Source: Seleniivibrio woodruffii (GTDB lineage: Bacteria > Chrysiogenota > Deferribacteres > Deferribacterales > Geovibrionaceae). From it: a stretch of DNA of 64,000 nt. The translations under genes were made by a program, and so were the position numbers. Location: the NCBI RefSeq assembly GCF_029267515.1, contig NZ_JAJUIS010000002.1:1-64000 (forward strand), given 5' to 3'. The notes under the pieces were generated by a model. That model searched no databases. It saw only the letters and a program-made list of their open reading frames with translations, and had not been told where the DNA came from. Positions 52,101 through 54,797 of this stretch are shown piece by piece (positions within the stretch are counted from its first letter, which is position 1; every line of letters starts with the position of its first letter).

Positions 52101-52910
52101 ATGCGTCAATTTTCCGTATCTGTTTATGCTAATGAAAATCTCATTCTTTCCGAAGTGCTTGGGAAACTGGAGGATGAATTTCCGTTAACAAGTATTTCAG
52201 TTTACGGCAACAGTCTCGCAAACACGACCCTAACAACTGCGACAAATGAATACGATGTTTTTCCCGCCGGAATGATCAAGGGCGACGATATCCTCCTTGT
52301 CCTTTCCGATCCGAAAGAGGACATTGAAATACTGAAACAGTTCGAAGGGGACATTGTGGATTTCACAGGTGCTATGACAGGTGAGGACGTTTATCGTGTT
52401 GAAGAACCCATAGCCTACCTTATAAACGCAGTGCAGATTAAGCCGGAGGATATGGAGGCGGTTGCACTTCTGCCGGCGGCTGTGTTCGGAAAAAGCGGTG
52501 TGGACGACATGATCAGCCAGACAAGAGAGCTTTTCACTTTTAGCAATTCCGAAACAAAGATTTTTGAGGAAAGACTTCCTTTCAATCTGTTTTTTTCGGA
52601 TGCGGGCACAGGTTTTCTTGCCGGTTTCAGACAGAAGATAACGGCTGAAACAGGCGTGGATGTGGACATTAGAATGGGAGCAATTTCAACCGGATTTGTT
52701 CTTGACTTATATTTTAAAAAAGATGTAAATAAGGACTTCGGATATATTACTGAATCAGTAGGATTTGTCCCGACAATGGCGGATGTGTGCGCAAGAAAGC
52801 GCCCTGTCACGGTTTTCAGGTCTAAAAACAGAATCAGCATAGCCGGAGACTACATAAACATAATCGGTTCGCAGATAACCGACGCATTCAAAGACATCAT
52901 TGGAGAATAA
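52101..52910 (+). CDS. Aspartate-semialdehyde-dehydrogenase-like protein without catalytic Cys (Usg-like)
   Basis: A 269-residue protein resembling the Usg branch of the ASADH superfamily: a reduced N-terminal Rossmann half, then PIAYLINAVQ, the strand-helix VALLPAAVFGKSGVDDMISQTRELF and LPFNLFF, which parallel Usg (valLqPaS..G..GVeeLarQt..L and AFN). The active-site Cys that ASADH carries in the N-C-T motif is not present, so dehydrogenase activity is unlikely. It precedes the Fe-S genes by two bases and is probably co-transcribed with them. Role unknown. Confidence 0.75.
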   Translation: MRQFSVSVYANENLILSEVLGKLEDEFPLTSISVYGNSLANTTLTTATNEYDVFPAGMIKGDDILLVLSDPKEDIEILKQFEGDIVDFTGAMTGEDVYRVEEPIAYLINAVQIKPEDMEAVALLPAAVFGKSGVDDMISQTRELFTFSNSETKIFEERLPFNLFFSDAGTGFLAGFRQKITAETGVDVDIRMGAISTGFVLDLYFKKDVNKDFGYITESVGFVPTMADVCARKRPVTVFRSKNRISIAGDYINIIGSQITDAFKDIIGE

Positions 52911-52912
52911 AC

Positions 52913-54094
52913 ATGATATATCTCGACAATGTTGCAGGAACCAAACCTGACGCAAGAGTGGTTGAAAAAATGCTTTCATTTTACACAGAGCATTACGGGA
53001 ACCCCTCCGCGCATTTCTATCCCATCGGTCGGGAGGCTTTCGAGGCTATGGAAGCGGCAAGGGGAGAGGTTGCCTCTTTTATAAATGCGAAAGCGGAGGA
53101 GATCGTTTTCACCTCCTGCGGAACAGAGTCCAATAACCTTGCTGTCAAAGGATTTCTGAAAAATCCGAAAAACAGCGGTAAACATGTCATTATCAGCGAG
53201 ATTGAGCATTTTTCAGTGGATTCCACGGTTACAAAGCTCATTAACGACGGATACCAGATAACAAAGCTGAAAGTTGACGATTCAGGACTCGTTAACCCTG
53301 ACGACCTGAAAAATGCCATCAGAAAGGACACTGCGCTGGTTTCCATTCAGCACACCAATCCTGAGATAGGCACAATACAATATACCGACAGACTCGGTGC
53401 GGTATGCCGCGAAGCGGGAGTTGCGTTCCATGTGGATGCCATTGCCGCTGCTGGTTTCTCAGAGCTGGATGTAAAATCACTTAACTGCGATATGCTCTCC
53501 ATCGCGTCACAGAATTTCTATGGTCCCAGAGGCGCAGCCGCTCTTTACATCCGCGAGGGTGTGAAGGTAAGCGGTCTCATGGACGGCGGACATCAGGAGC
53601 GAGGCTACAGAAGCGGATCTGAGAACGTTCCTGCGATCGTTGGTATGGGCGAGGCAGCGCGGATAGCGAAAGCTGAGATGGGCATCTGGGTTCCTGAACT
53701 CGTAAGACTGCAGAAACAGCTTTGGGACGGACTCGGCGGGATGTTCGATTTCCTGCATTTCACAGGGAACAAAGACAGACGCAGACCCGGACACGTCAGC
53801 TTCTGGATTGAATACATTGAAGGCGAATCGCTGCTTATGTGGCTTTCGCTTAAAGGATTTGCATGTGCAAGCGGTTCCGCCTGCTCGTCAAATATACTTG
53901 CGGAAGATGAGGAAGACCTCGCGGCTTCATACGTTCTTACGGCTGTTGGGGTTCCCAGCGACATATGTGCAGGTTCCCTCGGTATGTCCATGTCAAAATA
54001 CAACACACAAGACGACATTGATAATGTGCTGAAAGTTATGCCCGAAACGGTGCAGAGACTTTGCGAGATGTCGCCGATGTACAACAGAAAATAG
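52913..54094 (+). CDS. NifS/IscS-family protein lacking the PLP-binding lysine
   Basis: A 393-residue protein that aligns with IscS end to end (FTSCGTESNNLAVKG, IEHFSVD, HVDA, YRSGSENVPAIVGMGEA, VEGES-like IEGESLL, SGSACSS). The catalytic loop Cys324 and cofactor-site Asp175 are kept. However, SFSGHKIYGPKG of E. coli IscS reads SIASQNFYGPRG: His is Gln200 and the PLP Schiff-base Lys is Asn201. The Q of HVDATQ is Ala178, NNE is NPE, and the late Arg before SLG is replaced. Normal PLP chemistry is therefore not expected. It is followed by iscU and nfu. Archaeoglobus IscS is a known precedent lacking this Lys. Confidence 0.9.
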   Translation: MIYLDNVAGTKPDARVVEKMLSFYTEHYGNPSAHFYPIGREAFEAMEAARGEVASFINAKAEEIVFTSCGTESNNLAVKGFLKNPKNSGKHVIISEIEHFSVDSTVTKLINDGYQITKLKVDDSGLVNPDDLKNAIRKDTALVSIQHTNPEIGTIQYTDRLGAVCREAGVAFHVDAIAAAGFSELDVKSLNCDMLSIASQNFYGPRGAAALYIREGVKVSGLMDGGHQERGYRSGSENVPAIVGMGEAARIAKAEMGIWVPELVRLQKQLWDGLGGMFDFLHFTGNKDRRRPGHVSFWIEYIEGESLLMWLSLKGFACASGSACSSNILAEDEEDLAASYVLTAVGVPSDICAGSLGMSMSKYNTQDDIDNVLKVMPETVQRLCEMSPMYNRK

Positions 54095-54119: not shown

Positions 54120-54554
54120 ATGGCTAAAGGACCTTACAGCGATAAAGTTATGGATCATTTCATGAACCCCAGAAACATGGGTGAAATATCAGACGCAAAC
54201 GGCGTCGGCGAAGTGGGAAACCCCGCTTGCGGCGACGTTATGAAAATATTCCTGAAAATCAACGACGATCAGGTTTGCGAAGACGTTAAATTCAAAACAT
54301 TCGGCTGCGGCGCGGCTATCGCTTCCAGCTCTATGGCTACTGAGCTTATGATAGGTAAAAAGGTTGAAGAGCTTCTTGCTCTCACAAATCAGGCTATCGT
54401 AGATGCTCTTGACGGACTGCCCCCCGCTAAGATACACTGTTCTGTGATGGCTGAGGAAGCTATCGAGGAAGCACTTAAAAACTATTTCAAATCCAAAGGA
54501 CAGGATCCTGCGATAGTTGATGAGATGAAAGCGAAAATTAAAAAAGAGAATTAA
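54120..54554 (+). CDS. iscU: IscU/NifU-N type Fe-S cluster scaffold
   Basis: A 144-residue scaffold with the three cluster cysteines in GNPACGDVMKI, KTFGCGAAIASSS and KIHCSVMAEEAI, with the Asp after the first Cys conserved. It assembles [2Fe-2S]/[4Fe-4S] clusters and normally takes sulfur from the Cys loop of IscS. The usual LPPVK chaperone motif reads LPPAK. The ATG follows AGGAGG 25 bases after the NifS-like gene. Confidence 0.95.
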   Translation: MAKGPYSDKVMDHFMNPRNMGEISDANGVGEVGNPACGDVMKIFLKINDDQVCEDVKFKTFGCGAAIASSSMATELMIGKKVEELLALTNQAIVDALDGLPPAKIHCSVMAEEAIEEALKNYFKSKGQDPAIVDEMKAKIKKEN

Positions 54555-54569
54555 TACGGAGGATATACG

Positions 54570-54797
54570 ATGAGCCTTAGAGAAAAAGTTGAAGAAGTTC
54601 TGGATCAGGTTAGACCCACTCTTCAGGCGGACGGCGGAGACATCACTCTCCTTGACGTTTCCGAAGACGGCATTGTTAAAGTTCAGCTCACAGGAGCTTG
54701 CGGTTCCTGCCCCTTCAGCACAATGACACTGAAACACGGTGTTGAAGCAAGACTGAAGGATATGATTCCTGAAGTTAAAGAGGTTCTTTCAATATAA
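54570..54797 (+). CDS. Nfu-type (NifU C-terminal domain) Fe-S carrier
   Basis: A 75-residue stand-alone Nfu domain ([22 protein letters not shown]) with the cluster-binding CGSCPFS motif. It carries clusters from the scaffold to client proteins, of which this window has many (oxidoreductase, glutamate synthase, TtuA). It lies 15 bases after iscU, with TACGGAGG upstream, and closes the operon. Confidence 0.95.

Follow-up and report, generated by a model that had tools for sequence, protein, structure and literature searches.

Background

The closest described counterparts of the protein considered here come from archaea. In the available excerpts of one report (PMC7585200), Archaeoglobus fulgidus IscS is described as being without desulfurase activity, through a change of the catalytic Lys to Asp, and as contributing one Cys as a ligand of the IscU-borne cluster; IscS1 of Methanosarcina acetivorans is also said there to be without the catalytic Lys. 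Excerpts of a second report (PMC9769115) name Cys321 of the A. fulgidus protein as the ligand in the complex with IscU D35A, and a figure legend in it draws the A. fulgidus crystal 4EB5 with PLP, so that "PLP-independent" is not to be equated with "PLP-free". The IscS loop is positioned close to IscU in the accessible part of PMC5176006, and MisS/MisU of Helicobacter is presented as a two-protein system in that of PMC10653786. Desulfurase-free sulfur supply has archaeal precedents in the excerpts of PMC12442378, with sulfide as the source in Methanococcus maripaludis and elemental sulfur as a usable one in Thermococcus kodakarensis. A Lys-less enzyme is not mentioned in the accessible part of PMC8300815. 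Across the open literature available, at times in excerpt, and with subscription papers mostly beyond its scope, Lys-less IscS was met as an archaeal protein and a bacterial precedent was not found; a plasmid search likewise gave no bacterial precedent among 204 matches, all below 60% identity and judged by identity rather than by active site. The comparison suggests that the archaeal Lys-less IscS was known already and that the bacterial version may be new.

A desulfurase homologue without the catalytic lysine

The window, meaning the whole stretch of DNA analysed, comprises 64,000 nucleotides from Seleniivibrio woodruffii (class Deferribacteres, phylum Deferribacterota), the genome assembly of which is 99.97% complete. 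Positions 52913..54094 of its forward strand encode a NifS/IscS homologue of 393 aa, in which Pfam recognizes a complete class-V aminotransferase domain (Aminotran_5, 234.5 bits), and Foldseek comparison of an AlphaFold2 model (pLDDT 88, built from 19 sequences) with human NFS1, E. coli IscS and A. fulgidus IscS gave query TM-scores of 0.90-0.93. The preliminary description of this DNA had reported that the PLP Lys is missing from the usual S-x-H-K site, and re-reading of frame, start, stop and residues confirmed it: codons 199-202 (53507..53518, forward strand) read Ser-Gln-Asn-Phe, with Gln200 and Asn201 replacing His and the Schiff-base Lys. It was also correct in stating that other cofactor contacts are changed and a late Arg lost, and that the mobile-loop Cys324 and the Asp of HVDA are retained. 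Relative to E. coli IscS (alignment with L209), the losses are K206 to N201, H205 to Q200, S203 to A198, Q183 to A178, N155 to P150 and the SIRFS Arg to G357; T76, H104, D180 and C328 are retained as T71, H99, D175 and C324, and T243 to S236 is a conservative change.

An alignment of 117 homologues, 65 Lys-less and 52 intact (L049, which is the contig-edge fragment L039, was excluded), places these residues in a wider frame. Each of the 52 intact rows has Lys, His, Gln178, Asn150 and Arg357, whereas all 65 Lys-less rows have lost both Lys and Arg, with His remaining in 10, Gln in 5 and Asn in 10. On the forward strand of the window, codon 150 (53360..53362) is Pro where 52 of 52 intact rows have the Asn corresponding to E. 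coli N155, codon 178 (53444..53446) is Ala where all 52 have the Gln corresponding to Q183, and codon 357 (53981..53983) is Gly where all 52 have the substrate Arg. Codon 324 (53882..53884, forward strand), the mobile-loop Cys, is the same in 65/65 Lys-less and 52/52 intact rows, as are His99 and Asp175. The loop Cys is followed by an acidic insertion of seven residues (codons 328-334, 53894..53914, forward strand), absent from the preliminary description and from every one of the 52 intact rows; it marks a sub-clade made up of Deferribacterota, L051 (a further Lys-less relative, from Candidatus Zixiibacteriota) and L099-L103.

The window protein shares with the NifS, IscS and MisS desulfurases that are paired with IscU, NifU or MisU the class-V fold, the mobile-loop Cys and a gene adjoining that of the scaffold. 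The Schiff-base Lys with its preceding His and the substrate Arg are absent from it, and the Lys-less proteins as a group differ from those desulfurases in having neither catalytic Lys nor substrate Arg, with His, Gln and Asn mostly gone. Judged by its residues, it is a protein that matches desulfurase families but would be without their catalytic groups; it fell below the cut-off of every one of the 24 NCBIfam models listed, and illustrates a limit of family-based annotation.

The comparison with A. fulgidus IscS that had been drawn in the preliminary description is borne out, the Lys and substrate Arg being replaced, the loop Cys kept and IscU paired with the protein in both. The archaeal protein (PDB 4eb5, 4eb7, 4hvk) also shares the IscS fold and the loss of His; its C-terminal half shows Ser-Ser-Asn-Asp at the site, with the substrate Arg replaced by Leu. 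It differs in its archaeal origin, in an identity of ~37-39%, in having Asn-Asp rather than Gln-Asn at the site and in being without the acidic insertion. M. acetivorans IscS1, compared by its description only, resembles the window protein in the reported absence of the Lys and differs in being archaeal and one of three IscSU pairs beside SufBC (excerpts of PMC7585200).

The IscU operon and the Fe-S genes of the genome

An operon with IscU and Nfu had been proposed, and Pfam places both downstream. The IscU scaffold gene (54120..54554, forward strand, 144 aa; NifU_N, PF01592, 2.1e-48) starts 25 bases past the stop codon of the Lys-less gene, and its product retains C37, D39, C63, H106 and C107; the top PDB match is A. 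fulgidus IscU 4eb5_C (6.2e-46), just ahead of 7c8m (7.7e-46). Fifteen bases after IscU follows a gene for an Nfu-type protein of 75 aa with a C-x-x-C motif (54570..54797, forward strand; NifU, 8.5e-30).

A gene not mentioned in the preliminary description (52101..52910, forward strand, 269 aa) ends two bases before the Lys-less gene, is itself preceded by a RodZ-like gene, and is conserved at 33 of 43 class loci. Its product has no match in Pfam or NCBIfam; a low-confidence model (pLDDT 66) is similar to aspartate-semialdehyde dehydrogenase 2r00 (E 6.7e-9, 14% identity), which makes a shortened fold of that type probable. The operon may contain in it a second enzyme relative that has been shortened and is no longer catalytic, and whether the gene is part of the Lys-less IscS-IscU system is uncertain.

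The single IscU is the sole PF01592 match in the genome, and SufB/D gave no match in it, the same search being positive in 14 of 14 control genomes. Ten Aminotran_5 matches were found. The search for a second, intact desulfurase that the preliminary description had called for yielded, among these ten and besides the window gene, two IscS-like genes with His-Lys and Arg, of which L001 stands after CysE and an IscR-like gene and L002 adjoins MnmA. With two intact IscS-type genes present, the idea of a genome without a working desulfurase is not supported.

Distribution within and beyond the Deferribacteres

The class sample consisted of 47 genomes (G000-G046), and counting homologues in which the Lys is replaced, as had been advised, showed it missing from all 44 orthologues examined at this position (42 Gln-Asn, 2 Thr-Asn); that of G044 is in two pieces. 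Neither a Lys-less gene nor IscU was found in G040. G021 and G032 (assemblies 88% and 78% complete) carry an intact NifS next to IscU where the Lys-less gene would be expected (L076 = G021:C131; L077 = G032:C105). It groups in the tree with Clostridium and Lachnospiraceae sequences and is also their single strong IscS match, as though a single intact protein could stand in for both. L076 and L077 look like a natural replacement of the Lys-less gene by an intact, Clostridia-like NifS. With two more genomes of the phylum added, one strong IscU match was found in each of 46 of 49 genomes (not in G030, G040 or G044), six of the 49 having an additional match near the cut-off, and SufB/D in two (G015, G022). 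Reading of the class genomes gave an intact IscS in 43 of the 47, the four without a read gene of that type being G031, G044, G021 and G032; its identity to the Lys-less protein within the class is ~34-38%. A single internal TAA interrupts the alignment to the intact IscS of G004 (L230, G004:C3); since the frame is open through the sites examined, this stop probably falls close to where the match ends.

The pairing with IscU distinguishes the two kinds of gene. IscU lies less than 1 kb from the Lys-less gene at 42 of 44 class loci, the remaining two (L039, L234) ending at contig edges, and beside intact IscS in none of 43 class genomes (~1.5 kb inspected on each side where the contig allows); CysE is beside intact IscS in 36 of the 42 class loci checked. 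Beyond the phylum the Lys-less gene has IscU next to it at 15 of 22 loci, one of the other seven being cut by a contig end, and intact IscS has it at 3 of 24 (in G141, G193 and G050, the last being L075, G050:C49). Fisher tests of adjacency, Lys-less against intact, gave 5e-24 for all loci and 2e-4 outside the phylum, values that serve as a guide and not as true probabilities because the loci are related. That part of the earlier reading which saw a bacterial Lys-less IscS homologue coupled to IscU is thereby upheld by the class orthologues and the adjacency counts.

The outside relatives came from a profile search of 384 genomes, in which 57 loci outside the phylum were taken from the upper part of the match list; 21 of the 57 are Lys-less and, with L074 (G050), occur in at least 22 genomes of at least 16 families, figures that are lower bounds for the part of the list read. 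The position of the Lys is taken in them by Asn, Gln, Ser, Val, His, Arg or Thr, and each of the 22 genomes also has an intact copy, read as His-Lys with Arg. A single-genome oddity is excluded by the class orthologues together with these relatives. SufB/D was found in 2 of the 22 genomes (G345, G309) and in 15 of 33 comparison genomes, or 15 of 31 without G021 and G032 (Fisher 0.003), the comparison genomes having been selected on one intact hit each, a criterion that leaves further Lys-less copies outside it. A strict tie between the Lys-less gene and absence of SUF holds only in part, because about half of the comparison set is without SUF too.

Several features of individual sequences were noted. 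The Lys-less L104, L105, L109, L111 and L114 end in C-terminal stretches with many His and acidic residues that could bind metal. The Lys-less L142 (G060:C27) and L150 (G208:C18) have His-Arg replacing His-Lys, and in both genomes the intact IscS is within a CysE-IscR-IscS-MnmA row. Intact desulfurase domains of L185 (G345:C197) and L177 (G050:C74) lie in open frames of 734 and 748 codons and are perhaps fusions.

Phylogeny and selection

Trees were built without the active-site columns, from 93 rows and then from 83, near-copies having been dropped and, in the second, some long branches also. The Lys-less proteins fall on one side of a branch in both, 45 against 48 rows with SH-aLRT 96 in the first and 40 against 43 rows with support 97/95 in the second, where the split is found in 98% of 200 bootstrap trees. 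By this sequence evidence the bacterial Lys-less proteins appear to be one old clade. Many separate losses of the Lys among the sampled bacteria are not supported, given the one clade. In a tree of the C-terminal half (92 rows including A. fulgidus; bootstrap not converged), A. fulgidus IscS groups near intact sequences and not within the bacterial Lys-less clade (99/90), so that the analogy may be convergence, although the AU test does not reject a clade uniting them (p-AU 0.324).

Pairwise NG86 values of dN/dS for the window gene were 0.026 against L042 (0.0138/0.539) and 0.026 against L041 (0.0183/0.713), both congeners, and 0.053 against L043 (0.095/1.78); pairs with L044 and L045 were saturated. 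The corresponding dN and dS were 0.0051/0.329 and 0.090/1.26 for intact IscS, and 0.0029/0.450 and 0.036/1.24 for IscU. The substitution pattern indicates that the window gene is under long purifying selection.

Proposed role and alternatives

The Lys-less protein is probably an IscS paralogue, dead as a desulfurase, whose dedicated task is cluster assembly with the one IscU of the cell, a reading supported by the retention of fold, loop Cys and IscU/Nfu coupling while Lys, His, Gln and Arg were lost. A dimer of it would dock IscU as ordinary IscS does, and Cys324 would either be a transient cluster ligand, or take and relay persulfide or sulfide, while IscU builds the cluster, on the model proposed for A. 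fulgidus IscS-IscU. Two jobs of IscS, the making of persulfide and the holding of the scaffold, would then be divided between two proteins. The intact, unlinked IscS encoded in the CysE-IscR-IscS cluster has about an even chance of being the sulfur source; direct use of cell sulfide or polysulfide is a possible, more tentative alternative. The presence of that intact enzyme in 43 of 47 class genomes makes it at least as likely a supplier as free sulfide. Counting against the docking role are the 7 of 22 outside loci where IscU is not adjacent and the intact IscS that adjoins IscU in G141, G193 and G050. Half of the PLP pocket (T71, H99, D175, S236) is kept as well, is not obviously required for docking alone, and counts against it as the sole role; a structural need or a bound ligand might explain it. 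The drawing of 4EB5 with PLP in the figure legend of PMC9769115 counts, as far as that excerpt goes, against a PLP-less reading.

PLP enzymes with one dead subunit exist, and in a mixed dimer the Lys-less subunit could hold IscU while an intact IscS subunit makes the persulfide. This arrangement is unlikely. An intact IscS is available to nearly all the genomes concerned (43/47 in the class, 22/22 outside), the one intact IscS beside IscU in G021 and G032 is their only strong IscS match, and the S/T236 motif, which presumably reaches the PLP phosphate of the partner subunit, is kept. The two proteins are, however, ~34-38% identical in the class and encoded apart, and A. fulgidus IscS is described as a homodimer in its complex (excerpts of PMC7585200 and PMC9769115).

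Residual or altered PLP chemistry, with PLP or PMP bound without a Schiff base and acting on cysteine or another sulfur compound, would account for the kept T71, H99, D175 and S236 and for the PLP drawn in A. fulgidus 4EB5 (legend in PMC9769115), but is quite improbable: Lys, His, Gln and substrate Arg are lost together, the residue at the Lys position varies among the outside relatives in a manner unlike a new catalytic residue, and A. fulgidus IscS is reported as without desulfurase activity (excerpt of PMC7585200). Binding of IscU without sulfur supply could also sequester it, as would suit a regulator or storage protein that brakes assembly or stores clusters and is dispensable for assembly; the position next to the single IscU at 42 of 44 class loci, nearly all in genomes without SufB/D, would be an odd site for an optional brake, and this function is very doubtful. 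A sequencing error or decaying gene is scarcely credible in view of the dN/dS of 0.026 against two congeners and the one supported clade. Chance and sequencing error are excluded because 44 of 44 class orthologues read without the Lys, and gene decay is refuted by the same relatives.

Significance

The roles of IscS for IscU beyond sulfur supply are hard to study in model organisms because one protein does both jobs there. If the dedicated-partner reading is correct, an old bacterial branch would run its sole Fe-S scaffold on an IscS unable to release sulfur, with one IscS paralogue making the sulfur and another holding the scaffold, or with free sulfide used instead, and in the class Deferribacteres this uncoupled pair would be the main or sole route to Fe-S clusters; the chances for and against this wider picture are roughly equal. 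Within the class and outside it, the chemistry seems to be gone while the partner persists, and intact desulfurases are encoded elsewhere in the genomes, so that where the sulfur comes from, and whether the loop Cys is a ligand or a relay, would be directly testable in bacteria.
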